From: Pseudomonas sp. Leaf58
GTDB lineage: Bacteria > Pseudomonadota > Gammaproteobacteria > Pseudomonadales > Pseudomonadaceae
Length of the DNA stretch: 64,000 nucleotides
Assembly (NCBI RefSeq): GCF_003627215.1
Contig: NZ_CP032678.1
Span: forward strand, 840,164 to 904,163
Direction of reading: 5' to 3'
Position numbers and translations under genes: made by a program. This document shows positions 27,473 to 64,000 of the stretch, one piece after another. The notes beneath the pieces were generated by a model that had not been told where the DNA came from, did not search any database, and was given only the letters and a program-made list of their open reading frames with translations. How positions within the stretch are numbered: the stretch's first letter is position 1; each line of letters opens with the position of its first letter.

Positions 27473-28576
27473 TTATCCGCCTTGCTCGAATGCATCTTGC
27501 TGATGAGGGGCTTGCTCTTGCACCTGAAATTCACCTTCAAGGTCATCGGCCTGCGACTCCAGATCGGCGATCGTCAGTTCCGAACGGCAGCGGATGTCGG
27601 CGCCCAATTTCAGGCCACGAATAAGATCCTCGCCATCTTCATTACGATAGAACTCCCAGCCGGATTCGATCCAGCCATTGCTCTCCCAAAGCTTCAGGCG
27701 CTTGTTCAAGTCCGACTTCATGCGGCGTTTGACTTTTGCGTACTCGGAAATTGACCCGCTGAACTTGTGGTAGTTTTCAAGCTTGATGGGGAACACGCCA
27801 TCACGGTGCGAAGCAATGAATGGCAACAACTTCTTGCCGAAGCGGTCGAGTTTGTCGTAAATCTCAAAGGGCAATAGCGTGGTATTGACACCATCGAAGA
27901 AGACGGCGGATATCAGATCCAAGCTCAACAGGGTCTTGCCTGTCATGGAGTTGTGAGCGCGGTTGGCAATGAAGCGCATCGTGATATCCACGGGCTCATC
28001 ATTTTCAAGCCCATGGGCGATCATCTTGAGCATGGGCCCAAAGCGGTTCTCAATCGACTCCTTGTAGAATTTGCCATCCGGTCGATCAGCAATCGTAGGG
28101 CTGGTGAGGATGTCATACAGTCGCTTCAGCGCCATTCGGTCAGCAATCTTGATTTCACCCGTGGCCAGGTCATCCAGGATGGTGCGTGCTTTGGCAAAGT
28201 TTGCGCCCGAGTCACCCAGATCCAGCCAGCGCAGAATGTCGGCCAAAAAGACGTGAACCGGCTTGGTTAGGGACTTGCCACGGGCCAGCGTGAGCAGCCT
28301 GGCCATGACCACCTCGTGCTCAATGGTCAATCCAGGCCCTTTGTACATGATGCCGCTTTTGCCGAATGAGAAAATCGGTGTCCACTCGGAGTAGACTTTG
28401 CCCATCTTGGTGGTGCTGTACAGGGCACTGCGTACAATCGGGTTGGACTGCTCGAAGTACTTCTCGTTGGTGAGGGGAAGGACGCCCTGGCCAGATTCGA
28501 ACTCAAACTTCGCCTGAAGCTTGGTTTTTCTGTCGTCAATGACCTCTAGGGCTTCTTTGATTTGGGGCGTTGGCAT
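27473..28576 (-). CDS. plasmid replication initiator, TrfA-like
   Basis: A 367-residue protein resembling the TrfA/RepA initiators of broad-host-range plasmids, which bind iterons and open the origin. The stretch NPIVRSALYSTTKMGKVYSEW...IFSFGKSGIMYKGPGLTIEHEVVMARLLTLARG parallels the conserved TrfA region (ARSALF...IFS.GK....Y.G..L...D..VW..L..LAR). It is followed by a winged-helix-like VFLADILRWLDLGDSGANFAKARTILDDLATGEIKI. The acidic, Gln-rich tail (EFQVQEQAPHQQDAFEQGG) is extra. The gene lies at the edge of a 2.2-kb iteron field and is transcribed away from it. An inverted repeat and a TATAAT lie in its leader, pointing to autoregulation. Confidence 0.8.
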   Translation of the reverse strand: MPTPQIKEALEVIDDRKTKLQAKFEFESGQGVLPLTNEKYFEQSNPIVRSALYSTTKMGKVYSEWTPIFSFGKSGIMYKGPGLTIEHEVVMARLLTLARGKSLTKPVHVFLADILRWLDLGDSGANFAKARTILDDLATGEIKIADRMALKRLYDILTSPTIADRPDGKFYKESIENRFGPMLKMIAHGLENDEPVDITMRFIANRAHNSMTGKTLLSLDLISAVFFDGVNTTLLPFEIYDKLDRFGKKLLPFIASHRDGVFPIKLENYHKFSGSISEYAKVKRRMKSDLNKRLKLWESNGWIESGWEFYRNEDGEDLIRGLKLGADIRCRSELTIADLESQADDLEGEFQVQEQAPHQQDAFEQGG

Positions 28577-28584
28577 GATTCTTC

Positions 28585-28608
28585 CGCTCGGGCGTTTCCG
28601 TTCGAGCG
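28585..28608 (-). promoter_or_regulatory. inverted repeat in the leader of the initiator gene
   Basis: CGCTCG and CGAGCG flank 12 bases, nine bases upstream of the initiator start codon. It may be an operator or a leader hairpin. The ribosome binding site GGAAG lies just inside. Confidence 0.5.
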
Positions 28609-28643
28609 TAGGATATATTCCATGAATCGCAAGGTGTACCCTG

Positions 28644-28649
28644 ATTATA
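28644..28649 (-). promoter_or_regulatory. probable -10 box of the initiator gene
   Basis: A perfect TATAAT on the minus strand, 67 bases upstream of the start codon. No good -35 was found at 16-18 bases, so the box alone is reported. Confidence 0.4.
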
Positions 28650-28698
28650 GACTTTTTTGATATAAGAAGACATCTCTACAGCCCTGGCGGTTTGGTTG

Positions 28699-30538
28699 AC
28701 CGGAATCCTGTGTACGCTGACCTGCTCAGGAAGGGTGCGGGTTACCTAGCTACTGCGACCACTGGGCGTGCAATATCTCCCACTCTCCTGCTTCAGGCCA
28801 CGGAATTCGCGGTGTACACAAGATTCCGGTGTTGCCCCTAGCTGTCGCGCTCACACAATTCCGGTCTGTAATTCGCGCCAAGCCTGACCGAGATTGTCTG
28901 TGCAGGGGCTTTCAACGCCTCCCAGCGTGCTGCTCTTCCTTATATAGGCGCTGTACGCAGGATCACGGTGCGTGCACACAGATTTCCGGTCGTAAGCCCC
29001 AGATAGCCCCATTGAGCGGGCAATCTCCACTCACGCACATGGCTTTCCGGCAGCCGCACACAGGATAACGGTCAGCGTACACAAAACCACGGTCACCGCA
29101 GGCCCCAGGCGGTTGGATTTACCTGGCGCACAGGAAACTCCGGGATGGGTTGAGCACCTGGGTGCGGTTTGAGGTGTTGCGCACAGCAAATTCCGGTACA
29201 CCCCAGGCTGCGCACACAACTTTCCGGTGAGCGCTCACAGAAATCCGGTGGCCGCCCGCTGATGTCGGCTGCAGGCGGGATAACTTAAGTACTAGGCGCA
29301 CACAGCTTTCCGGTGACCGCTCAGAAAATTCCGGTTTGGCACAGTAGGAGCGCGGGTCTCGTGGCCAGGACGCGCCAGTGACCGCTTGCAACTGTCAAAA
29401 GGCGAGGCAAACAGGGCGTTTGCACACGAAACTCCGGTCGCTGTACACAAAATTCCGGTCTGCGCTCAAAAGATTCCGGTCAGCGCTCAGAAAATCACGG
29501 TATATCAACAAGATAGCCAAACTGGCTTGGAGTCCGTCAAAAACAGGCGGCACAAGGCGGCGCGTACACAAATTTCCGGTGAGCGCTCAGAAAACTCCGG
29601 TATATCAGTTGGTTAGACAAGATTTTGGCAACTGGCGCACAAGAGATTCCGGTGCGCGCACACAAAATTCCGGTCGAAAGGCGTGCTTCAGGCCGTCAAA
29701 GCCATGTCAGGAGCTGTTGGCGCTCAGCAATTTCCGGTAGGTGCTCACAAGTTCCGGTCGGCGTACACGTAACTCCGGTCGGCATCGCGCCCGCGCACAC
29801 AAGAATCCGGTCAGCGCACATCAAATTCCGGTCGACGCTCCCTCCTGGACGGGAGGATAAGTGTCTGCGGACGTTGATCCACAGCTCGCACATACGAATC
29901 CGGTCGCTGCACACCAATTTCCGGTGACTTCGGGGCACCCTGCTCGTTCCAGGCCGCGAGTGAGGGTGCGACCGCTGCCTTGCTGCCCTCCAGCCGACCA
30001 GCTGCACACCAAATTCCGGTCTTATCGGGCTCTCGTACAAGAAACTCCGGTCACCGCACACAAGATTCCGGTCGCACTTGGAGGAAAGCTCCAGCTGCAC
30101 AGCCTGGCACCTGCCCAGGGGTATTGCGAAAGCCTGGCGGACGGTTGTACACAGGACTCCGGCAGGTGTACACGAACTTCCGGTCATATCCACGTCAGAC
30201 GCTGGATCCGTTGGATGGCGACGTTCACGGCGCACCCGCAATTCCTGTCGGCGCACGTGAATCTACGGTCGATTGGCGAGGTGACGCCCCTATCCTCCCC
30301 AATAAACCTCAGTGCTGCGGATATGCTTCGGCTCACGAACATGGGATTCCGGCTAGCGCACACCAATTTCCGGTCGGGAAGGTTTTTCATCGCGGCTCCA
30401 GCATCGGCCAGCTACCCGACCAGCTCTCCAGCTGACTGTTTCCAGCGGGGTGTACACATATTTCCGGTCTGCGCTCAAAAGATTCCGGTTGAATTCGGGA
30501 AAGCCGCTGTTTTCCTGGAGCGCACAGGAATTAGCGGT
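28699..30538 (+). repeat. dispersed iteron field, about 40 copies, paired at 21 bp
   Basis: About 40 copies of an imperfect 18-20 base element, consensus GCGCACACAAAATTCCGGTC, all in the same direction between 28830 and 30538, plus one reversed copy at 28699. The CCGGT ends of neighbours are most often exactly 21 bases apart (for example 29438, 29459, 29480, 29501; 29051, 29072, 29093), two helix turns; other gaps are about 31 or 50-100. There is no credible gene in this stretch; open frames here only read through repeats. The field lies between the initiator gene and the compact iteron cluster at 30711. Confidence 0.88.
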
Positions 30539-30635
30539 ATTTCATGTGAATTCGCCCGTGAGCAATGCTTGTCCCCTGTAAAAATTGCACGGAGATGCAC
30601 GCAGCCCCTATGAATCGGGGCTTACAGCTAACCCG

Positions 30636-30910
30636 TGGAATTTATATACAAAGTTATTAACTGGTTATGCACAGCTTACTCACAAAAAATCAGGGTATTT
30701 TGGGGTTTAGAGCGGAGTTTTGTGTGCGCTCTCCGGACTTTCCTGAGCGCCAACCGTAATCTCATGAGCACGGGCCGGATTTTCCTGAGCGCTTACCGGT
30801 ATTCCATGAGCGGTAACCGGAATGCTGAAAACGCCCACCGGAAAGCTGGTTACAAGCGTGTACACCCAAAGCCCAACAGGCACGGGCAAAAGCCCCAGTT
30901 ATCAACAAGC
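30636..30910. other. probable replication origin (oriV) core
   Basis: An AT-rich stretch (30636-30665), a DnaA box TTATGCACA at 30665-30673, the seven-copy iteron cluster, and a second DnaA-box-like TTATCAACA at 30899-30907 in the same direction. AT-rich DNA, DnaA boxes and tandem iterons beside an iteron-type initiator gene are the standard parts of such origins. The function is inferred from this layout. Confidence 0.7.
30711..30856 (-). repeat. compact iteron cluster, seven tandem copies at exactly 21 bp
   Basis: Seven copies in the opposite direction to the dispersed field begin at 30711, 30732, 30753, 30774, 30795, 30816 and 30837, each a variant of ACCGGAATTTTCTGAGCGC. The spacing is constant at 21 bases, unlike the irregular field on the left. 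The position next to the AT-rich DnaA-box stretch suggests these are the sites used for opening. Confidence 0.9.
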
Positions 30911-31024
30911 CTTAACCCCGTAGATCTAATCCCACGTTTTTAATCCCGGTTTTCCTAACCCCGTCAGCAGCCCTAACCATCCTTTTTTGTAACCCTTTGG
31001 CTTTGCTCACCCGCAAACTCAGGC

Positions 31025-33379
31025 TCAAAGCCGGCCCTGAAGAATTTCGCCGAGGCTGTAGGCATCGAGCATGGGGTTGTCCATGACCTCATCAAGATCA
31101 GCTTGCTGGATGGCTTTGTCGAGAACCCCGACATCGAAACTCGGCAAGCCGAGCTGCCTGCTCAACTCGCTTTCGCGTTGGCTGAGGCTTCGCAATCGGC
31201 ATAAGGCAAAGCGCAGGTGCCGATCGGGGTGGGCGCTCATCAGATTCCGGGCTGCACGCACACCGGCTTCATGCAACTGCTGACGCACTTCGACAGGGAT
31301 ATGAAAATCTGCCGTGTCAATTGTCCCCGTGCGAAGGATGCCGATGTTGTTCAGCGCTTCTTCGGAGGTGACCTGGGGATTATGGTGGGACATGAACTGT
31401 CCCACGGTGGCCGACACCGCCCTGAGCATGTGAATCTTGATGGCATCCCAATGCCGCCGCAGTGAACCAATCCTGGGCAGACCCAAAGCATTCAGGTCGA
31501 ACTGATACATCTGTCGTTGAATTTCCTCATCGAGCATGATGCGCAGCTTGCTGCCCTTGTTGTTGATCAGTTCATCCACCGCCTGATACTCCAGGTCAGA
31601 CTCAGTTGAGGACTGAATGAAAGCAATTGTCTGGGCATCGGCCTCTTGCTGAGAGGCGAACTGATCCGTGAACATACGCAGGGGGAGGTTGTTGTTGACC
31701 CCGCCGTCAATCAGATTCATACCATTGAACTTCATGACTTTGAAAACCACCGGCAAATTCATACTGGCCCTGACTGCTTTTTTGATGGGCATGTGCTGAT
31801 GTTCGCCAAAGCGCCCATCCTTGTTGGCAGCTCTGGCAAAGATCGGTTTGAAGAACAAGCGGTTATCAAGTGCGCCAAACCCGTCGTCCACTTTTTTCCC
31901 CTCCGTGAACGCTGTAATCGTTCGCTGAACCAGACGTGCGCAAAAGCGGCGGACTGCCCTGGGGGATATAGGGAGGTGGTGATCGGTCATAGCCACCCCA
32001 AACTCCTTGAAACCTTCCTGTGGAAACAGGTCGGCAAGTTGTTTGAGCTGAACGAAGGTGACGTTACGCCGGGCTTTTCGAGTATTCAGGGGAGGGGTGA
32101 TGGATTCAAGAGCATGGGGATTCAGGCGATCCAAGCGGCTCTGAATCACATCGCCGATAAATTCCTCAATCGTTTCGGATTCCGGATCCAGCCTGGATTT
32201 CGCGAAGCGTAAACATTGAATGGCGCCCTGATAAGCTTCCGAGCGACCAAATAACCCCACAAATTGAAGCGTTTCAGCTTCTGCTCTGAGCCCCTGCGCA
32301 TGCATATCGCTGAGGAATTGCCTGCGAGCCTGATGGTAGATCTCTGCAAGGCTAACTTCACCGCGAGCAGCAACACCTTCCAGTCGCTGTAAATGGGTAT
32401 GGATAACCTCTTCATCCATTTTCAGCCACTGGCTGGTGGTAATTCCAGTGTGCTCGACGAGCATGGGCACCATGTATTCCCGACTGAAATCCTTGAGCAT
32501 AATGCCTTCAGTCTGGGGTGATGTTTCTGTGGATATTGAGCGCAGATAGCGCTTGCCTCGCACCCGCGCAGCAATGGTTTTGACAGTTTCCGTGAATTGT
32601 CGCTGGTATTTCGCAGCCATGCTGATGGGCAATGCACTTTCAGCAAAAAATTGGGCAAATCTGCCGTAATGCACCAGGTGTTTTATCTCTTTTGCCGGGA
32701 ATCCGAAGGCCATCATGAGGCCAATCAAGGCCCCGGCTGACGTGCCGCCAACGTACTTGATATCCTTCAGGGCGCCGATTTGCTCCAGGTATTCGGCAAC
32801 ACCACTGGCACCCATTTTTTTGGCACCCCCGCCCTGAAAAATCACAGCTTTGGGGGCAAATACAATATCCTGCTTCTTACGCATATTGACCGCTCTGTCA
32901 CAGGCGCTCTCCAGAATATTCTCTTTCTGCTGGAGGATCAGCTCTGCCTTGCGCCGGTCGGTGGCACTGGCATCAGCCGCCATGCCTTTGGTAATCACAC
33001 GATTGGTGTCTGCAATGTGATTTTTGAGCACACCCAGCTTTTTCTTCAGGGCGGGGTCAATTTTGGCCAGGCCCCGTTCTAGGTCTTTAAACAGGTGGCG
33101 ATTGTCACGACCATGGGGGTCTGCAACTGCAAAAAATCGCTCATCGTCTGCCTGATCGCTATGCATGACTCGGGTCAGAATGCCCAGCAGGTAGGGTTTG
33201 ACCTCTTCCGGATCCTGGTTTTTCATCTGCTCAGGGGTAAACACATAGCTGCCGACGCGCAGGAAAGCCACCCATCCATCGGATATCAGCCGCGCCATTT
33301 CGTGAATTTGTCTTTCACGCAAAAAAACCGCAAAAGCTTCCTGCCGCTTGACCTTGATTTCGTGGAGCGAATTACTCAT
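31025..33379 (-). CDS. patatin-like phospholipase
   Basis: A 784-residue protein with a patatin domain. The oxyanion loop is FQGGGAKKMG (residues 183-190), the nucleophile elbow is GGTSAGALIG with Ser214, and the catalytic Asp lies in NLIDGGVNNNLPLRMF. Such enzymes hydrolyse membrane lipids; some are type III or type IV effectors, others act in defence or phage lysis. The 175-residue N-terminal and the long C-terminal parts show no domain I can name and no signal peptide. A TATATTGATAC motif lies 22 bases upstream of the start. It is single, next to the origin. Confidence 0.87.
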   Translation of the reverse strand: MSNSLHEIKVKRQEAFAVFLRERQIHEMARLISDGWVAFLRVGSYVFTPEQMKNQDPEEVKPYLLGILTRVMHSDQADDERFFAVADPHGRDNRHLFKDLERGLAKIDPALKKKLGVLKNHIADTNRVITKGMAADASATDRRKAELILQQKENILESACDRAVNMRKKQDIVFAPKAVIFQGGGAKKMGASGVAEYLEQIGALKDIKYVGGTSAGALIGLMMAFGFPAKEIKHLVHYGRFAQFFAESALPISMAAKYQRQFTETVKTIAARVRGKRYLRSISTETSPQTEGIMLKDFSREYMVPMLVEHTGITTSQWLKMDEEVIHTHLQRLEGVAARGEVSLAEIYHQARRQFLSDMHAQGLRAEAETLQFVGLFGRSEAYQGAIQCLRFAKSRLDPESETIEEFIGDVIQSRLDRLNPHALESITPPLNTRKARRNVTFVQLKQLADLFPQEGFKEFGVAMTDHHLPISPRAVRRFCARLVQRTITAFTEGKKVDDGFGALDNRLFFKPIFARAANKDGRFGEHQHMPIKKAVRASMNLPVVFKVMKFNGMNLIDGGVNNNLPLRMFTDQFASQQEADAQTIAFIQSSTESDLEYQAVDELINNKGSKLRIMLDEEIQRQMYQFDLNALGLPRIGSLRRHWDAIKIHMLRAVSATVGQFMSHHNPQVTSEEALNNIGILRTGTIDTADFHIPVEVRQQLHEAGVRAARNLMSAHPDRHLRFALCRLRSLSQRESELSRQLGLPSFDVGVLDKAIQQADLDEVMDNPMLDAYSLGEILQGRL

Positions 33380-44989: not shown

Positions 44990-47536
44990 ATGATCAAACA
45001 ACTAGACAATTATCTGCTTGGTCGAAGCGTACGCAAATACCGTGCAGAAGCTCAGATTATCCAGCACCATAGCCTCAGCCTTGGGGGCGTCCCCGATGGG
45101 TCGCTTGCCAACAGTTTCCAGAATCTTCGCGGTCGCACCGACCGGGAAGCGATGCAGGTGGGCTTTGCAATCATCGTCGAGATGGCTGATCGAACGCTTG
45201 GAAAGCGCCCTTATGAAGTGCAGATCATGGGCGCCCTGGCGATGGCGGATGGCCGTATCGCCGAAATGGCCACGGGTGAAGGCAAAACCCTCACCGCTGC
45301 GCTTCCGCTGGCCTGGAATGGCCTGCAGACTCGCGCCCATGCCATGACGGTCAACGATTTTCTGGCCAGACGTGATGCCCAGCAACTTGACCCCCTGTTT
45401 GAAGCCCTCGGCCTGACCGTGGGTTATCTGCAGGACAACTTCGGTCGTGAATCTCGCCAGATCGCCTATCAATGCTCGATTGTCTACGGCACCCCGTCGC
45501 AGTTTGTGTTCGACTACCTGCGTGACCACATCGTCCATCGCCATGCACAGCTCATGCAGCAAGGCCGGAATTTCCTATTGGTTGATGAGGCTGACTCCAT
45601 CTTCATTGACGAAGCTCGCACGCCCATGGTGCTTTCGGGCGATGGGGCTCTTGATCCGAGCCTGTGGACTGATCTCTATGCATTTGTCTCGTCGCTGACC
45701 CATGAAGACATGCGTGAAGACAAGCGCACACAGCTGGAGAAAATCCTCGTCGACAACCACGGCTACGAATCGCACCTGATCGTCGATCGCACCAAGTCTT
45801 CGGCGTTCTTCAGCGAGAGCGGCATCACCGTGGCCGAAGACTATCTGTTGGACAAGGGTGTCATTGCTACCCGCGATGAAATCTGGCAACCGTCACGCTC
45901 CCACATCTGGCGTGCCCTAAACGCCTGTGCCAAAGCTGCGCACCTGTTCGTTCGCGACCGGGACTACATCATCGCGGATGACAAAGCGATTATCGTTGAC
46001 CAGGAGACGGGACGCCTGTCTCACGGCAAGCGCTGGAACGATGGGCTTCACCAGGCGGTGGAAGCGAAAGAGTCCTTGTCCATCAAGCCTGAGTCGGAAG
46101 AGCTGGGGCGAATTGCTTTGTCGAATTACGTTTCGCTCTACAGCTCGGTGGGTGGCATGACCGGTACGGCCATGACTGAGGCCAAGGAAATCCATGATCT
46201 CTACGGGCTGACCACTGTCCCTATCCCGACTCACCGCCCGCGTATCCGCGTCGATCATCCCGACATCGTCTTCATGACCCAGGAAGGCAAGTGGCGGAAA
46301 ATTGTCGAGGATGTCAAAACGATCCACGCCACCGGCCAACCTATCCTGATCGGTACCGGCAGCATTTCCGACTCCGAGCAGCTCTCCGCACGCTTCGAAT
46401 CGCTGGGGATCGACCACCAAGTGCTCAATGCCAAGCAAGACGAGCATGAAGCGATGATTGTGGCCCAGGCGGGGCGTCTGGGCGCCATCACCATTGCCAC
46501 AAACATGGCTGGCCGTGGCACCGACATCATTCTTGGTGGCAACCCGGAACTGATGGTCGAGGAGGAGGCTGACGAGGAATCGATTGCCCGCGTGGAAGAG
46601 GCGTGCCGTAACGAACGGCAGGCAGTCATGGAGGCAGGTGGCTTGTTTGTGATGGGGTGCGAGCGTGGCGACTCCCGCCGCATTGACCTGCAATTGTCAG
46701 GTCGTGCAGGCCGCCAGGGCGACCCAGGGGCTTCACGCTTCTACATTGCCCTGGACGACCCGTTGCTCAAGAACTACGGTGGCGATGCCCTCAAGCGATT
46801 CTTCCTGGCCCTGGGCCTGGGCGAACATGATGGCGTCGAGCACAGCATGATCAACAGCTCCATCGCCAAAGCGCAGGCCAAGAAACAGGCCATTCACATG
46901 ACCTCGCGCAAGGAAGGCCTGAAGCAGGATTCGGTCATCGACAAACCGCGCCATGTGTTTTTCCAGCTGCGTGATGAGCTGTTGGCTGAGGATCCGGCAA
47001 CCATCTTCGACTTTGCCAGCAACAAGGTCGAACAGGCCGTTGAGCGCATGCTGTGCATCTACCTCAACAGTGGCAAGGGTTTCCCGGAGACCTGGAACAA
47101 GGCAGGCCTGCGCGACAAGCTGGTAGGCTGGGGGCTGTCCGGTGACTGGTTTGATGGGATGTACGCGGACTTTGAAAATGACCATTACAAGATCCAGGGT
47201 CTCAAGGATCAGCTGGTCAACTGGATTCAATTTGATCTGCGGGCCCGCTCATCTCAGCTCCAGGACAAGCGCGATGCCATGATCCATAGCAGCCTGCTGC
47301 ATGCGATCGACACCCAGTGGAAAGCCATGTTGGAGGAGGCTGACCACATCCGCGCCGGCATCCACTTGCGCGCCTATGCCCAGGAAAAACCCGACCTATC
47401 CTTCCAAAAGGAGGTGTTCAGGCTATTCAAGGCCCTGTATTTCGATATCCCGGTGGTGATGATCGATTACGTCTATGCCTGCGTGAGTCACCGTGAAAGC
47501 CAGCTTGATCAGGTCGAGGATACCGCCGCAGCCTGA
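44990..47536 (+). CDS. secA: SecA-type protein translocase ATPase
   Basis: An 848-residue SecA, the motor that pushes preproteins through SecYEG. Walker A is MATGEGKT (residues 93-100), Walker B is LLVDEADSIFIDEARTP, the cross-linking domain follows, and helicase motifs FGLGGNPE-like (GRGTDIILGGNPEL) and QLSGRAGRQGDPGASRFY are intact. It lacks the C-terminal zinc-binding Cys motif of housekeeping SecA, as in SecA2-type or divergent copies. A plasmid-encoded SecA is uncommon; it may serve special substrates such as the exported proteins next to it, or replace the host copy. A terminator follows. Confidence 0.92.
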   Translation: MIKQLDNYLLGRSVRKYRAEAQIIQHHSLSLGGVPDGSLANSFQNLRGRTDREAMQVGFAIIVEMADRTLGKRPYEVQIMGALAMADGRIAEMATGEGKTLTAALPLAWNGLQTRAHAMTVNDFLARRDAQQLDPLFEALGLTVGYLQDNFGRESRQIAYQCSIVYGTPSQFVFDYLRDHIVHRHAQLMQQGRNFLLVDEADSIFIDEARTPMVLSGDGALDPSLWTDLYAFVSSLTHEDMREDKRTQLEKILVDNHGYESHLIVDRTKSSAFFSESGITVAEDYLLDKGVIATRDEIWQPSRSHIWRALNACAKAAHLFVRDRDYIIADDKAIIVDQETGRLSHGKRWNDGLHQAVEAKESLSIKPESEELGRIALSNYVSLYSSVGGMTGTAMTEAKEIHDLYGLTTVPIPTHRPRIRVDHPDIVFMTQEGKWRKIVEDVKTIHATGQPILIGTGSISDSEQLSARFESLGIDHQVLNAKQDEHEAMIVAQAGRLGAITIATNMAGRGTDIILGGNPELMVEEEADEESIARVEEACRNERQAVMEAGGLFVMGCERGDSRRIDLQLSGRAGRQGDPGASRFYIALDDPLLKNYGGDALKRFFLALGLGEHDGVEHSMINSSIAKAQAKKQAIHMTSRKEGLKQDSVIDKPRHVFFQLRDELLAEDPATIFDFASNKVEQAVERMLCIYLNSGKGFPETWNKAGLRDKLVGWGLSGDWFDGMYADFENDHYKIQGLKDQLVNWIQFDLRARSSQLQDKRDAMIHSSLLHAIDTQWKAMLEEADHIRAGIHLRAYAQEKPDLSFQKEVFRLFKALYFDIPVVMIDYVYACVSHRESQLDQVEDTAAA

Positions 47537-56722: not shown

Positions 56723-57226
56723 CTATTCCTCTCTCATCATTTGAAGTCTTTGTAGGGGATCCATGAAGTCGTCATCGTCGTCTTCATCGGGGTAAGCGGC
56801 GTTGTCTGGGGGCGATGGCAGGGTTTCATAGGTGCCTGCGAGCTCCACAACCCCCTCAGCAGGCTCTTTCGGGCTTATAGGCTCGGGCTCTACATCAACC
56901 CGCCGTGGCGGAACCGGGAGGCTTGCAGGCGCTTGTGGCGCTGTCCCTGCGGGGGGAGTGGAGCTTAGCGCTGGCACTTCGGAAACGGGGATCGGTTTCT
57001 GCCGGGCCTTTGCCTCTCTACGCACGGTGCGCACGTCGGGGTTGCGCGCCGCAAACCAGGCTTGTTCACCACTCTCCTGACGCAGGACGACACGAGCCCC
57101 GATCATGAGCATTTGCAGCAAGGCCTGGGCCTGACGATTCCGGCCTTCAATGCCCTCCAGATACTCCAGGAGTTCAGCATGACTGGGGTCAGCCTCATAC
57201 AGGCTAATGACCTTGCGATGGCGCAT
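56723..57226 (-). CDS. ParR/StbB-like DNA-binding partner of ParM
   Basis: A 167-residue protein. The first 50 residues (RHRKVISLYEADPSHAELLEYLEGIEGRNRQAQALLQMLMIGARVVLR) fit the ribbon-helix-helix of ParR/StbB: strand, two helices, and an R-x-x-A-L core. The rest is Pro- and acid-rich and probably disordered, as in ParR tails that touch ParM filaments. Its start shares one base with the ParM stop (TAATG). It would bind a centromere and couple it to ParM. The likeness is by pattern; the order parM then parR is the known one. Confidence 0.7.
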   Translation of the reverse strand: MRHRKVISLYEADPSHAELLEYLEGIEGRNRQAQALLQMLMIGARVVLRQESGEQAWFAARNPDVRTVRREAKARQKPIPVSEVPALSSTPPAGTAPQAPASLPVPPRRVDVEPEPISPKEPAEGVVELAGTYETLPSPPDNAAYPDEDDDDDFMDPLQRLQMMREE

Positions 57227-58236
57227 TACTTCTGCCCCATAGCAAATTCGGCGTACTTGAGCATGCCTTCGGCGTTGGCAAATGCGGCATCTTCCAGCAG
57301 CACCTGTTGCTCAAACCAATCTGCCAGGTGGGGCCTCAGGAACTCGCTGGTGCCGCCGATGAAAAATACCGTGTCAATGTCACCGGACTTCTGCAGTTGG
57401 CGCATGACGGTGGCCTTGATACTGTTCAGCACCGACATCGTTGCGGAATCGACGATTTCCCCGACGACATGCAGTTTGCCCTTGACCTTCACTTGGCGCG
57501 TGGTGAGCGCTTGTTCGACTTGCTCGTCAGTCAGGTCGACACCGTTAAAGAAATCATACAGACGATCCTTGAGGGCGGTGACGATTTTGATCATGCCGAT
57601 TTCATCGGTGGTGGAGCGATCTCGATCGAGCACCCAGTCCTTGACCACAGCTATATCAAGCGTGCGACCACCAATATCGATGATTGCTGTGCGCTCAAGG
57701 GCCCTGTCCTTGACAATGCTCAGCTTGCCCTCAGGATTGCGCTGGATGACGTAGTTGACCCAGCCGGCGATCGCCTCAGACAGCACATCATGCCGCTTGA
57801 TGACTGCCGGGGCATAACCATCCACACCTTTGACATCGTAGATTTTCAGGTTCTTCTTTTTGCGTCCGATAAGATCCTTGTTCAGGTCGCCGTTGAGGTA
57901 GAAGCGCTTGAGTGGAAGTCCGGTGACAATATCCAGTGTATGTGACTGGTTAAGGCCGAGCTGGCGCAGCGCATGAGCCACAATGACACGGTTTTGGGCA
58001 CTGGTTGGATAGCCATCGTAGGCCGTATCTTCAGCCGCCTCGATATTGCCAACCGAAAACGGGCCGTCCTGGGTCAGATAGCTGAACACGCCGCTTTTCG
58101 CGCCGTTGAGCGAAATCTGATTGGACAGGCCACTCATGGCCCTGGAGGGTGTGGAGATGCGCAGTCCATTGGATAGCACAATTTTCGTCTCGCGGTTGCC
58201 GTCATCAACGCCCGCGAAAAGGTGATTTTCTGACAT
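57226..58236 (-). CDS. parM: actin-like ATPase, ParM family
   Basis: A 336-residue actin-fold protein of plasmid segregation type. Phosphate-1 motif is FAGVDDGNRETKIVL, phosphate-2 is AIIDIGGRTLDIAVVKD, and the adenosine motif is VFFIGGTSEFLRPHL. Such proteins form filaments that push plasmid copies apart. It heads a minus-strand set: ParR-like, DotM, a small gene and DotL. TATATTGAC, 20 to 30 bases upstream of ATG, is the likely -10 region. Use in segregation is the best guess. A role tied to transfer is possible given the operon. Confidence 0.88.
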   Translation of the reverse strand: MSENHLFAGVDDGNRETKIVLSNGLRISTPSRAMSGLSNQISLNGAKSGVFSYLTQDGPFSVGNIEAAEDTAYDGYPTSAQNRVIVAHALRQLGLNQSHTLDIVTGLPLKRFYLNGDLNKDLIGRKKKNLKIYDVKGVDGYAPAVIKRHDVLSEAIAGWVNYVIQRNPEGKLSIVKDRALERTAIIDIGGRTLDIAVVKDWVLDRDRSTTDEIGMIKIVTALKDRLYDFFNGVDLTDEQVEQALTTRQVKVKGKLHVVGEIVDSATMSVLNSIKATVMRQLQKSGDIDTVFFIGGTSEFLRPHLADWFEQQVLLEDAAFANAEGMLKYAEFAMGQK

Positions 58237-58483: not shown

Positions 58484-60456
58484 TTACAGGCCTTCGCGCT
58501 TGACGCGATAAGGCATGATTTCACACCCATAATTCCTGAATGGACATTCCAGGCAACCCTTGCAAAAAGCATCGTTCGACCTGGCCTCCTTGGTCAACGC
58601 TCCGACTTCCAGCCGCTTGTCATCGGAAATCCCAAGAATGCGCATTTGGTAGCCGTAGAGGTTTTTTCTACCGGCGCTCGCTGACACCCAGCCTAACTCG
58701 CGCAGCTTCTTCGAGACCCACTCAGGCTTCATCCATACCAGGGGCTTGCCTTTGATGGGCTTTTGCCCCATGGCCTGACGCAGGCGGAGCATGACCTCCA
58801 CCACACTGATCGTTCTGGCCCCTTCCCTCGCGCATTGCTCAATCACATAGGCCAGAGCATCGGTGGCCGAGCGGAATGTGATCTTGCGCTCTGTCTGCTT
58901 CTCCAGCGAGCGCTCAATCGCCTGTTCCGCCTCCGCCAGGCCTGACAGCTTGGCCAGCACTCTCAGCGGTGCGGCAATTTCCTGTTCACGATCGGCGCTG
59001 GCACCGAACAGGTTGCGGTAGCCATTGCTGACGTCGTTGACATGGTCAAAGGCCCAGCAGTGCAACTCATTTCGCAGTGTATGCAGTTCATCGGAACTGA
59101 GCTCGTGTCGGGCAAGAAACGGATCCAGCTGATCCTTGGGGATAAGCTGGGTGGATATTTGAATCATCCGTGTTCCCAGGATCCGATCGACTCCTGTGGT
59201 GTTCGAGACAATTTTGACCCCAAAGAAATTTACGATCTCGGTTTTCTTGCGGTCATTCGTGATCACCTTGTTGGCGGAAGCTTTCTTGTAGCTCACCTTC
59301 AACACCTGCACCATTTCTGAAAACGATTCGCGTCCGGCGCCCGAGGCTCTTGCCCCAATGGATTCCAGGTCGTCAATCACCACCAAGCCTTTGGCCTCAT
59401 CCATCAGGCGAATCATCGAGGAGGGGCTGGTCTTGCCGATCATGACCGCATTACAGGACACATCTGTCATGGCTTTGCCCAGGTCGCTCTTTCCTGTGCC
59501 ACCTTCACCATTGAGTAGAATCAAAGGCACAGCATCGAAGATGGCTTGGACATAGGAGGTGATGCAGGAAAAGGTGAGTACCCAGTAATCATCAGGATCC
59601 GGAAGCCACACCTTGGCATGCAGGTGCTGGTATACACGCTTGGCTAGGTGCCGCAGGCTTTGCGGGGTGTAGTCATTGGCCAGGTAGCGTTGTATCGAAT
59701 CCCATGACCAAGTCGACTGAAACCCTGCAATGGGTGGTTTTTGCAGCAGGTGCCATCGGTTAGGCGACAAATATGCGACTGGCGCCCCTTGGTCGACTTG
59801 GTTTCGATCACATTGAGCAGTGTGCGGTCGGATCGCACTACCACCACATCAATCGATTCGCTGCCCGCTTGTGCTACTCCATCCACGACATGCGGGGTGG
59901 AAACCAGGGTCTGCACGGAATAATAGAGGCAGCCGCGAAGAAAGGTGGAGCCCAAATCCACCGGGGCATAGGCCGCACGCGTGGGTAGTAGCTCAGCGGG
60001 CTCCGGTTCGCTTGCCAGGTGATTGCCTGAGAGCTTTTCAAGGCGGTAGACCATCCGCCAGACCATGAGCTTGGCTTGTACAGCAGCAAGTTCGGCCTGA
60101 CTCCCCTTGCCCTCCAGATTGCTCACGACGGTTTCAACAACCGAATCCCAGTCCTCTGCATCGAACAAGTCCGACGTGTTGTCATCCTCACCGAGGTTGG
60201 CCACTTTCAACAGTTGATCCAGGGCTACCAAAGCGATACCGGCCTCGGCCAGACCGAAACTGTCAATTGCTTTATCTCTGAGCGTTCGTCCGGTAATCAT
60301 CATGATGTCCAGGTGCGGATGTGGCAGTCGAAAGCCCGGATTTCGTGGCTTTGCGGTGTGTCCAGTTAGAGTCCAGGTATCATCACATAAGTAGGTACTT
60401 TCGTCCAGTGTCGTCCAACATGATACCTGCTTAACTAGCAGTGCCTGACCGAACAA
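58484..60456 (-). pseudogene. primase/helicase-like P-loop ATPase, split by one frameshift
   Basis: Two frames (59644-60456 and 58484-59770) join if one G is added to the GGGG run near 59790: the text then reads ETKSTKGAPVAYLSPNRWHLLQKPPIAGF. The joined protein has about 657 residues: an N-terminal domain that I do not recognise, then an ATPase with Walker A LLNGEGGTGKSDLG and Walker B LVVIDDLESIG as in plasmid and phage primase-helicases. The C-terminus has a Cys cluster CKGCLECPFRNYGC that could bind zinc or Fe-S. The N-terminal start is unsure: 60456 is TTG without a binding site, and ATG codons lie near 60303. A replication role is inference. Confidence 0.62.
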
Positions 60457-61665
60457 CGCCGTATTGATTGGGTTTGCAGTTTCAGAATTTTTAATGGGGT
60501 ATACTGGACAAAAACTGGAATATATAGAAAATCGTGTAAAATCAATGGATTGCTGATGTTTTAGTCCGGTTCTACTGGTTTATACCCGTGATTGAAAACG
60601 TGCTAACACTTGATAGTGGCTAAATGCCATCAACCGCACGGTGTTCTCGATTGAATCGTGCAGCTGATCAGGGAGGTTCATGCTTCTATACCCCTCCCCT
60701 GTCCGTGCGTTGCGTTTTATTGATGGTTTCTTCCAGTCTCCGTTTGAATTAAAGGAACATCTCGTTAAGGCCTCGGAAACGATCTGCGGGACTCGCCGGA
60801 TCACCGCTTCGGTTGCTCAACTTTAACTGTGACTTCCGTCGTTGGGACTGGGCTACCCAGGGTGAGATCGTCGCCCCTGCTCGTTTTCGAGGGATCCGGA
60901 ATCACCGTCTCCCTGGTCAAGCTTTATAGGACAGGCCATCAATCTAGCTGACTATCGTTTGTGCTCGTTGAGTTGCCCGGTTATTGCGTGTCTATGCAAT
61001 CGATTTTCCTGCCGAGGATGCCAACTGTTCTGGGTCAATGTGAAACGGTTGCACTGGATTCAGCTCTAACCTGCACGACAGCAGTGATCAGTGAATAACA
61101 GCAATGGGCACGAGAATGATCCGATTACTTGGCGTGCATCTCTGTTAGATCCATGGGCTTCTCAGGGCTCCCTCCCCTCTTTCATTTTAGAATGTTTGCT
61201 TGACCCAGCACTTTGCTCCGCTTATGGCTCTTGCTGGTGACGCCAGAGCAAAGACGCGCCGGTTGCGTGCGGCTTTAGCGTGTTGATGATTTGCAATGCG
61301 ACCGCAGCCCAAGATTCATTGGTTTGCTCGATGTCTCGCTATTGCTTGTCAGTGGGCCTCGCTTGATAATTCCTGGGCGATTTTTGGCGCTGATTCTCAT
61401 GCTCTAGCCTCCCATGAAGAGCTGCCCCAAGTGCTTCAGCCTAGATGTTTAATGCCCTGAACTGAATGCCCTTTCTCCGCACACCCCCCCCTCCCTCCCC
61501 TCCCCTTCTTGCTTCTGGTCTTCCATGCACGTAATAGGGGCCAGCGGTTGGGTGCCATCAATCCATCGACGCCACCGTCCGCTGGTCAAGATGACTGGAC
61601 GATGCGCACTTGAAGCCTATAGTCAGGTGCGTTAATGATTCGCCTGCCCGCAGCACCCAACGATT
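60457..61665. other. non-coding stretch right of the primase-like gene
   Basis: About 1.2 kb without a credible gene. A 74-codon frame at 60580-60804 has no support. The left end holds AT-rich DNA with TATATATAG near 60520, likely the promoter area of the primase-like gene. A C-rich tract lies near 61485-61505. No repeat family was recognised here; the palindrome array begins right after. Confidence 0.5.
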
Positions 61666-63911
61666 TCCCCAATTTGGGTTTCCTGCGAGGGTAGTCGTTG
61701 GTCATATTTCCGGGCATGAAAAATTTCGGTCAGCGCCGTGAGTCGTTAACCACCCTGCTTTGCGGTAGCGCACCTTTGTAGACACCCTCCACCTTGGTAG
61801 CTCGTATAGCATGTTGACCTTGGTTGTGTTTAAGTGGATGTGAGTAACCCCAAATTGGGGTAATGGGGTCGTCATCAATTTTGCCTCGAATCCGTTGCTG
61901 GCCTTCCGGTCTTTTCGTGAGTGGGGCCTACGAGCGACAGGCTCTAGTTTTGGGGCTGATGCTTTACCCCAATTTGGGGATCCGCAGGTGCAGTCGATTA
62001 CTGCTTCTCGTATCAGCTACGAGCAGTGTTGTTAAGTTGTGATTTTTGGTGTGAGCCACCCACCCCATATTGGGGTGCTCCCCAGTTCGCAACGCCGACT
62101 GCCCTCGTCTAGCACTTCCTCGGGTATGCTTGGCACCATGGGGCATCGAGTCATCCTTGGCTGAAACTGCAGGACGCCATCCACCCCAAATTGGGTTTTC
62201 ATCCTGCACCCAGTGATAAATCACCTAGCTTCTCAAGCAAGCTGATCGGACATGCTATCTGTGCTCGTTGTGGCGCAACCCCAATTTGGGGTAATCCGCC
62301 GCTCGCTAGACTGCGGGTAATCGCCTGCTGTCACAGCTTCCTCGCAGGCTTGCAACGCCCTGCGATGGCTGTAACAGTCCAGTTATCAGCTGATCATAAC
62401 CACCCCAATTTGGGGTTGGTCAGTCTAAGGAGGTCGATGGTGGTGTTCTGAGGATATACCCAGCCGAGGTTAGACCAGGCGGCGAGTCTATCGCCTGGCT
62501 CGTATGCATTAGGGCTTATCCACTAAGCGTCGCCCCCAATTTGGGGTAGAGTTGGTTGTCGGTCGTGACCTGAGTTCTATTAGCCAGTGCGCTGCCAAAC
62601 CAGCTCCGGCTTGCCAGTCTGTTACCCCTAGTCGCCTTAGAATGTGAGTCCTGGCTAGCCCTATACCCCAAATTGGGGTGATCCACTCTGCGCCGGGTAG
62701 GCTTCATTGTGGATGGGTGCCTGAGGCCACTAAGGGGACGACCATCGACCAGAGCACTGCCGTCGTCAGTCATTGCCTAAATTTGACTCCTCGAAGTTTG
62801 ACTGGCCGCCGGTGTCCCTTTCGACCGGGATCTGCGGCGAGTGACTTCGCAGCTTTGAGTCACCTGGCATGTTATCACTGCCGTCTTTGGATGCTAGACA
62901 ACCCCCAATTTGGGGCGCTAACCTTCCTTCCCTATATGCCCCTAACCCCCGTGCCCAAGCAACCGATGGCTATGGTGCTTGAGGCCGCTGTTCTGCAAGG
63001 CGAAACCTTTAGCGAGTATGTTGGTGTCCACTCGTCTAACTGTCTTGCAGATCGCACCCCAATTTGGGTTGGCATGTGTCGTCCCTTAAATCTGGGCGCC
63101 AAGGTGTCATGGAGAAGTCCGATGCCAGGCGCGCACAATAGGAGAGGAGGAGGGCGTGCATGGCTGATAACTGATTGAGTCGCAGGCGAATCGTCTCGGC
63201 ATGGTCGACGCTAGACCCCTTAGACAGTCAAGGATGACAAAACCAATTTGGGGATGGGCTTGCGGGTGGCGGATGGCAAAAGGCGATCATGTGAGCCGGC
63301 ATGAGCGTTAATCCGAGCACACCAGGCGCCTGGTCAATCAGGAATGAACGTCCCCGAATTGGGATGAGCCTGCAGCTATGATTCGAGTGGGGGTGACAAT
63401 CCGAATAGCCACCTGATGCCAGTAGTCCTAGGTCTGTGCGTAGGCGCTCGCCAAGACTATTGATTCGCGTGCGTGGGTCGCCCCAAATTGGGGTGAGCAC
63501 TAAGCTGGGAGTGGCCCTTCTCACCCTCGCGATTGCCACTGAGTCACTATCATTGACCCTGCATCTGCACGAAGAGTGGCAGTCTGTCGTTCCGAAACCG
63601 AAAGATCAGGGAGCGGTAGTTGTCGTCCATTGGGAGTAACGTCAGCGCGTATGTCAGTGCTCCAGCGTGCCTGAACCCCAATTTGGGGCATGATTCACAG
63701 ATGGCTTAGTGAGCGCCAAACGGCGATGACTAAAGTGGCTCTGGGAATGTCGAGGGGGCTGCATAGCACTTTATATAGTGGAAGGACGAAGTTTGTCAGA
63801 AAATTCCACAACCAAAAATGCCAGACTTCACCCTTGAATTCCGAACTTCCACGTCTATCATCTATTGGGACTTGGCTGCCATCTTTGGCAGGAACAACCC
63901 CAAATTGGGGA
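61666..63911. repeat. array of 16 copies of a 15-bp palindrome in non-coding DNA
   Basis: Copies of ACCCCAAWTTGGGGT begin at 61666, 61847, 61966, 62062, 62183, 62278, 62402, 62533, 62665, 62902, 63056, 63240, 63351, 63480, 63675 and 63897. Most are perfect palindromes around a central A or T; the copies at 61666, 62183, 63056, 63240 and 63351 have one to three changes in one arm. Spacing is 95-240 bases, most often 95-135. The DNA between copies is not repeated and has no gene. No copy was seen left of 61666. The array may continue past the right edge. Confidence 0.92.
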
Positions 63912-64000
63912 GAGCACCTTGACCCTGGGAAGGTGACTCGGTATCTTGTCACACAAGGCTTAATCTGGATGAGAATGTTTCTCAATTGTGGGGGGTGGCA

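Follow-up and report, generated by a model that had tools for sequence, protein, structure and literature searches.

The window analysed here, a stretch of 64,000 bp, corresponds to positions 840164-904163 of contig C2 of Pseudomonas sp. Leaf58; C2 is 904,163 bp in total, and the end of the window is thus the end of the contig. Close to this end lie sixteen copies of the 15 bp palindrome ACCCCAAWTTGGGGT, arrayed between 61666 and 63911 (C2:901829-904074), fourteen of them with no more than two mismatches and two with three. The features of the region are as follows.

57226..58236, minus strand: ParM/StbA-like actin homologue, 3.4 kb from the array (~26 kb away in P. silesiensis and P. serbica)
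58484..60456, minus strand: conserved gene flanking the array at the end away from parA, with a Walker-type motif, in two overlapping frames (59644-60456 and 58484-59770)
61666..63911, no strand: palindrome array (proposed parS cluster) without convincing genes, 16 x ACCCCAAWTTGGGGT (mean of 0.15 matches in shuffles)
61666..61680, no strand: palindrome 1, 2 mismatches
61847..61861, no strand: palindrome 2, exact
61966..61980, no strand: palindrome 3, 1 mismatch
62062..62076, no strand: palindrome 4, 1 mismatch
62183..62197, no strand: palindrome 5, 1 mismatch
62278..62292, no strand: palindrome 6, exact
62402..62416, no strand: palindrome 7, exact
62533..62547, no strand: palindrome 8, 1 mismatch
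62665..62679, no strand: palindrome 9, exact
62902..62916, no strand: palindrome 10, 2 mismatches
63056..63070, no strand: palindrome 11, 1 mismatch
63240..63254, no strand: palindrome 12, degenerate, 3 mismatches
63351..63365, no strand: palindrome 13, degenerate, 3 mismatches
63480..63494, no strand: palindrome 14, 1 mismatch
63675..63689, no strand: palindrome 15, 1 mismatch
63897..63911, no strand: palindrome 16, 1 mismatch; if C2 forms a circle, 89 bp ahead of the start codon of parA
63919..63947, plus strand: weak candidate for a sigma-70-like promoter, lying between palindrome 16 and parA, 9/12 match

All fourteen matches to ACCCCAAWTTGGGGT with two or fewer mismatches in the 64 kb window fall within 61666-63911, and 100 shuffles of the window give a mean of 0.15 such matches and a maximum of 3, with none attaining 14. 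The inner CCCAAWTTGGG is the best kept part, each of its positions being retained in at least 15 of the 16 copies, and the outermost position is retained in 11 of 16 on either side. Start-to-start spacings range from 95 to 237 bp and show no helical phasing at 10.4-10.6 bp. The initial annotation had described sixteen copies at intervals of about 95-240 bases in DNA without a gene and with unrelated sequence between them, and this description holds: self-BLAST of 60457-64000 (E 1e-3) reveals no further internal repeat, and the two ORFs of at least 100 aa in the array (166 aa, 62678-63178, and 103 aa, 63228-63539) are not convincing as genes, the former having no Pfam match. Rfam models give no match at 58-64 kb up to E 0.1. 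The array had been drawn from 61666 to 64000; its start stands, and the last palindrome stops at 63911, with 64000 merely the contig end. Sigma-70-like sites number four in 60400-64000 versus 2.4 expected, which is near chance, so the promoter candidate is not evidence alone. The core CCCAAWTTGGG occurs sixteen times in the whole genome (6,335,721 bases in two contigs), with thirteen copies in the array, two elsewhere on C2 and one on C1, which excludes an equal frequency elsewhere. Similarly, among 801 3-kb windows, sampling 508 kb of the 904-kb contig, only the four that contain the array exceed three copies of one palindrome class.

The first base of C2 is the start codon of parA, which encodes a 272-aa ParA, and parB (~310 aa) comes next. 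This gene pair was not visible in the initial annotation, since parA begins one base beyond the end of the window. Searches with ParM, ParA and ParB identify four related Pseudomonas megaplasmids: pMPPla107 (971,889 bp), FeN3W (909,734 bp), P. silesiensis pPL1 (1,168,067 bp) and a P. serbica plasmid contig (1,059,468 bp). We infer that C2 is circular because the pMPPla107 sequence is a circular record cut at the identical base, with corresponding genes flanking the cut, and because FeN3W, silesiensis and serbica have array and parA on one continuous stretch of sequence. On a closed circle the Leaf58 array would be positioned directly upstream of parAB.

ParA is a Walker-type ATPase with a KGGVGKS motif (PF13614, E 2.9e-35). 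ParB has an N-terminal ParB_N domain of the CTPase type (PF02195, E 7.8e-20), exceeds the curated cut-off of TIGR00180 (92.1 versus 58.45 bits) and scores 80.2 bits with the RepB model, under its cut-off of 201.5. The sequence contains the motifs GEHRWRA and ENKQR, which we take to point to a ParB_N (CTPase-type) domain. A profile of four family ParBs matches Noc, Spo0J and ParB structures (best E 3.8e-28) and KorB (1.3e-5). A structural model of a 93% identical homologue, P0001, has a mean pLDDT of 72, rising to 85-96 per ten-residue block across residues 131-240, and places helices 150-157 and 161-172 as in a helix-turn-helix. The best PDB matches of this model are ParB and Noc, and KorB structures are matched too, with whole-chain TM-scores of only 0.20-0.36 among the 25 best, and its whole-chain arrangement is unreliable. 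Pfam helix-turn-helix models do not match ParB. ParB is a member of the ParB/RepB/Spo0J family, of the Spo0J/Noc/KorB type, with a putative helix-turn-helix in a model of middling quality. A Type Ib system with a small RHH centromere-binding protein was considered and is out, as ParB is a ParB_N protein of ~310 aa.

Comparison with the relatives places the array in a broader context. A tblastn search with ParB matched 882 PLSDB records, from which the three Pseudomonas megaplasmids were taken into the comparison, and a search of genome contigs added one further family member (one of 70 candidate stretches). ParB homologues also occur in metagenomes (P0003-P0011), P0004 on a contig of up to 938,879 bp. 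All four records with a strong match to the Leaf58 ParB have a palindrome array upstream of parA, within a gene-poor gap of 3.1-4.8 kb. The pMPPla107 array has 18 sites of the palindrome TGCCCAAWTTGGGCA, that of FeN3W has 19 sites of TGTTTCCATGGAAACA, and silesiensis and serbica have a palindrome in common, AGTCGCAWWWTGCGACT, with 23 and 15 sites; these counts allow up to three mismatches (four for FeN3W), and 0.03-0.28 sites are expected from 40 first-order simulations of each. In all five plasmids the site closest to parA lies 66-146 bp upstream of it. FeN3W has no gene annotated in the gap, and ORFs of 200 aa in silesiensis and of 150 aa in serbica are likewise absent from it. The gap in pMPPla107 is not gene-free as annotated, and includes two short genes for hypothetical proteins (129 and 525 bp), the longer of which covers three sites. 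Array DNA of plasmids with different palindromes cannot be aligned, save for one 18 bp match. The pMPPla107 array also contains a 400 bp direct duplication, 84.6% identical and with several palindromes (L014:10012-10790), indicating that arrays can grow by duplication.

The exact 15-mer ACCCCAAWTTGGGGT is present only in Leaf58 among 95 genomes, its own and 94 others. An absence of the array from every close relative, a possibility raised in the initial annotation, is excluded by the palindrome arrays of the four relatives, although the 15-mer itself is found in 0 of the 94 other genomes. BLAST of the array DNA against PLSDB, for near and distant matches, gives none, although records of Leaf58 itself or very near to it were perhaps left out. 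A ParM profile finds only Leaf58 among 398 genomes of the genus (E 1e-60), and scans of IMG/VR with a double-site pattern and with ParM find nothing. The Vibrio megaplasmid NZ_CP062152 encodes a 42% identical ParM but was left out of the comparison because it lacks a relative of the Leaf58 ParB; a count of repeated k-mers in one of its ParA regions (L018) revealed nothing array-like. Vibrio pVP-19-VB00998, a megaplasmid with a 42% identical ParM, has 5.5 kb without listed genes before a DUF3346-domain gene (L051:13628-19149) in a PLSDB gene table that is incomplete.

The best account of these observations, as judged from sequence comparison, is that the array very probably forms the centromere of a ParABS partition system belonging to the megaplasmid itself, with the palindromes as clustered parS sites. 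Several features of such a system are found: a ParA ATPase gene, whose adjacency to the array follows from the presumed circle, a ParB with a ParB_N domain, and palindromes clustered upstream of parA. The canonical chromosomal parS sequence is TGTTYCACGTGRAAC, and with up to one mismatch it occurs three times on C1, five times in the serbica genome on a contig other than the megaplasmid, and not at all on the five megaplasmids. The initial statement that the palindrome differs from canonical parS is thus right in its letters, there being no such site on C2 at up to one mismatch, and the context nonetheless makes it a parS-type site. The initial annotation had also proposed a site for a dimeric protein with three unranked roles; of these the spread centromere gains support from parAB beside the array and from the arrays in four relatives, and nothing emerged in favor of a sink for a nucleoid protein or a fork-handling region.

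The counterpart of the gene at 58484-60456 is a single frame in pMPPla107 and FeN3W, and the division into two frames in Leaf58 could be a sequencing error, a frameshift or a true split of the gene. The gene adjoins the array in three of the five plasmids and is replaced by a different gene in silesiensis and serbica. It could be imagined that the palindromes are iterons of a replication initiator, perhaps the product of this conserved neighbour, and that the array is the replication origin. The GC skew of C2, as sampled, is negative in every stretch from 605 kb to the junction of the contig ends, negative in four of the five 10-kb stretches sampled within the first 50 kb, and mostly positive or near zero at 60-510 kb; it therefore turns between the junction and ~60 kb past it, near the array and not exactly there, and an origin may be near. 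Moreover, repeats that precede parAB in Deinococcus are reported in the available text of PMC7671480 to serve as ori and parS at once. However, the gene at 58484-60456 has no initiator match in Pfam, and silesiensis and serbica keep the array with a different gene in the neighbouring position. A candidate iteron-type origin is also present elsewhere in the window at 27473-31251, ~30 kb before the array, where a TrfA-family gene (27473-28576; PF07042, E 1.7e-7) stands beside iteron-like units of the GCGCACACAAAATTCCGGT type, 19 bp long, with 39 matches (up to five mismatches, 35 in the same orientation) in the 2.5 kb at 28.7-31.2 kb. The TrfA-family protein matches 124 PLSDB records by tblastn, and among the eight matches listed (seven P. 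aeruginosa and one P. citronellolis, 21-415 kb) it is 61% identical over 92%. In FeN3W, the only relative whose initiator was mapped, a RepB-family initiator gene lies 210 kb from the array. With the palindrome motif also tracking ParB, as described below, we regard an origin at the array as very unlikely.

The ParM homologue offers another candidate owner of the sites, since ParM is present in all five plasmids and in Leaf58 is encoded just 3.4 kb away; the array would then be the parC centromere of an actin-like parMR system and not that of ParAB. But in silesiensis and serbica parM is ~26 kb from the array, and the array is within 150 bp of parA. The parM gene sits in a transfer region, among genes for DotM/IcmP and a coupling protein, and the Leaf58 ParM is 56-69% identical to the ParM of pMPPla107, FeN3W and silesiensis, yet the palindrome changes. 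There is accordingly hardly any likelihood that the array serves ParM. An array that stays with parAB where parM is ~26 kb off and another gene occupies the opposite flank argues that the sites belong with parAB, and we retain the ParABS centromere as the preferred reading.

Other genes of interest lie in these regions. The Leaf58 window encodes a plasmid SecA homologue of 848 aa (44990-47536), and a SecA-like ORF, judged by eye, is located near parM of P. serbica (L019:19368-20954). The P. serbica megaplasmid also has an FtsZ-like gene (L019:17765-19117; PF00091, E 1.5e-46; PF12327), near parM and transfer genes.

Palindrome and ParB vary in concert among the five plasmids. The core CCCAAWTTGGG occurs 18 times in pMPPla107, 17 of them in the array, and is absent from FeN3W, silesiensis and the serbica genome. 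The FeN3W core, TTTCCATGGAAA, occurs 15 times there (12 in the array), is scattered in three copies in the Leaf58 genome and is absent from the others, and GTCGCAWWWTGCGAC is found 20 times in silesiensis (19 in the array), 14 times in serbica (13 in the array) and in none of the others. For ParB, we compared the N domain (residues 36-130 of the Leaf58 protein) and the DNA-binding region (131-205). The eight pairs with unlike palindromes are 41-48% identical in the N domain and 16-31% in the DNA-binding region, the Leaf58-pMPPla107 pair, with its palindrome core in common, is 59% and 52% identical, and the silesiensis-serbica pair, with the same palindrome, is 77% and 76% identical. Where the palindrome differs, the DNA-reading part of ParB has thus diverged more than the CTPase-type part, although silesiensis and serbica are also the most similar pair overall, the comparison has no outside control, and the DNA-binding region of ParBs may evolve faster generally.

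One scenario, which we advance tentatively as a possibility that falls somewhat short of an even chance, is that the whole centromere has been rewritten in place several times. The 15-23 palindromes of each array and the DNA-binding region of ParB would have changed jointly without the locus leaving its place upstream of parAB, so that five plasmids would hold four distinct centromere codes. The few isolated copies far from the array, one of which has the same intergenic position in two plasmids, would then be additional loading sites for ParB. If this is correct, centromere switching would permit related megaplasmids to coexist, and the co-evolution of centromere and reader would be directly testable.

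Seven of the eight isolated copies lie outside likely genes, the exception being a copy at 313785 of pMPPla107, 25 bp inside an annotated gene. Two are on C2, each with one mismatch: that at C2:610678 is between ORFs of 88 and 217 aa, with two small ORFs (80 and 95 aa) overlying it, and that at C2:711313 is not covered by any ORF of at least 80 aa. FeN3W has three copies between annotated genes, at 126138, 624732 and 624812. The copies at silesiensis 879985 (L093:6986) and serbica 289253 (L094:7254) are flanked by the same two convergent ORFs, ~256-258 kb from parAB, and the palindrome is perfectly conserved with diverged flanks; with A-runs and T-runs around it, this copy could instead be a terminator hairpin. 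The isolated copies may nonetheless be extra ParB sites.

The C2:711313 copy lies 171 bp upstream of an SMC-like operon encoding a 1265-aa protein (PF12128) and then proteins of 213 and 412 aa; palindrome and operon together take up L013:5314-11173, corresponding to C2:711313-717172. The gene arrangement resembles that of a condensin-type operon, and the 213-aa and 412-aa genes have no PADLOC or NCBIfam match. A link between ParB and condensin was considered and rejected, there being no exact palindrome core near the related SMC-like genes of FeN3W and silesiensis. This copy also bears on the idea that the palindromes are unconnected to partition and are instead operators for a regulatory or nucleoid-structuring protein, or sites that block replication forks. 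Palindromes do suit a dimeric protein, and the two one-mismatch copies outside likely genes on the contig, one of them ahead of the SMC-like operon, fit such a role. Set against this, the clusters adjoin parAB in five of five plasmids, promoter-like sites in the 60400-64000 region are near chance (four versus 2.4 expected), and FeN3W and silesiensis lack the exact core near the related SMC-like gene; a polar, Ter-like action is not expected either, because the sites are symmetric. A role apart from partition therefore seems extremely improbable, and the centromere remains the interpretation that we develop here.

As the centromere of a ParABS system the array would be read by ParB, whose binding to the palindromes we propose by analogy. 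Each palindrome would be bound by one ParB dimer and act as a loading site, as suggested by known ParBs with a helix-turn-helix (PMC5002424 and PMC13245405, in the portions available). CTP-bound ParB clamps would then slide from the palindromes across the gene-poor DNA, and bridge, as the same portions of these sources suggest. Many sites would give a large partition complex, to be moved by ParA to the daughter cells, and a gene-poor stretch would presumably spare ParB spreading a conflict with transcription. The site closest to parA may additionally autoregulate parAB. This reading provides a likely function for a striking unannotated array and a probable centromere for megaplasmids of the pMPPla107 type, relevant to how these plasmids are inherited and to their compatibility. 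Together the five make up a natural series for the evolution of centromere specificity, in which the CTPase-type part of ParB is better kept than the DNA-reading part, which differs along with tens of sites, and the family would be a source of distinct ParB-parS pairs for DNA labelling.

RK2 KorB is a ParB-family protein with many palindromic operators dispersed over the promoters of one plasmid. The Leaf58 system likewise combines a ParB-family protein with many sites per plasmid, but here most copies are in one array. Chromosomal ParABS systems (Spo0J/ParB-parS and Noc-NBS), as presented in the available sections of PMC5002424, are alike in having a ParB_N CTPase-type domain and several palindromic loading sites, as proposed here, and their helix-turn-helix corresponds to the one modelled for the Leaf58 ParB; they differ in that TGTTYCACGTGRAAC-type sites are missing from C2, where the sites are instead packed in one array beside parA. 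Replicons of the repABC type carry palindromic parS sites within the partition operon or close to it, in some cases more than one, according to the accessible text of PMC9040568. The Leaf58 palindrome, by inspection, does not fit the repABC parS consensus GTTNNNNGCNNNNAAC given in that text, and no repC match was found among the four searched genes after parB. The Deinococcus cisII and cisMP arrays are similarly positioned upstream of parAB on a secondary replicon and are bound by the cognate ParB, but in the available part of PMC7671480 they are 18 bp iterons (direct repeats) with DnaA boxes and an origin function, whereas the Leaf58 repeats are palindromes and the candidate iteron origin is ~30 kb off. 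The Bsr systems of Burkholderiales secondary replicons, in the sections available from PMC5450999, also pair a ParB of the helix-turn-helix type, the type modelled for Leaf58, with replicon-specific palindromes, of narrow, cognate specificity, and in Ralstonia pickettii 12J the Bsr site is repeated five times upstream of parAB. Bsr sites are 16 bp with a central CG, whereas those described here are 15 bp with an A/T centre, in 16 copies, and unlike among related plasmids.

In the literature searched we met no description of parS for this megaplasmid family, whose main comparative paper was outside the search and may contain a prior description. Neither parS nor ParB is mentioned in the available portions of PMC8544880 and PMC8628078, and a search with the strings CCCAAATTGGG and CCCAATTTGGG, from which the relatives' palindromes were left out, gave no paper on bacterial partition by title. 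Replicon-specific palindromic parS sites, multiple copies and arrays upstream of parAB have already been described (in the text available from PMC5450999, PMC7671480 and PMC9040568), and the kind of system is therefore known. The site sequence itself is apparently undescribed, and the notable part is the change of the palindrome between related plasmids.
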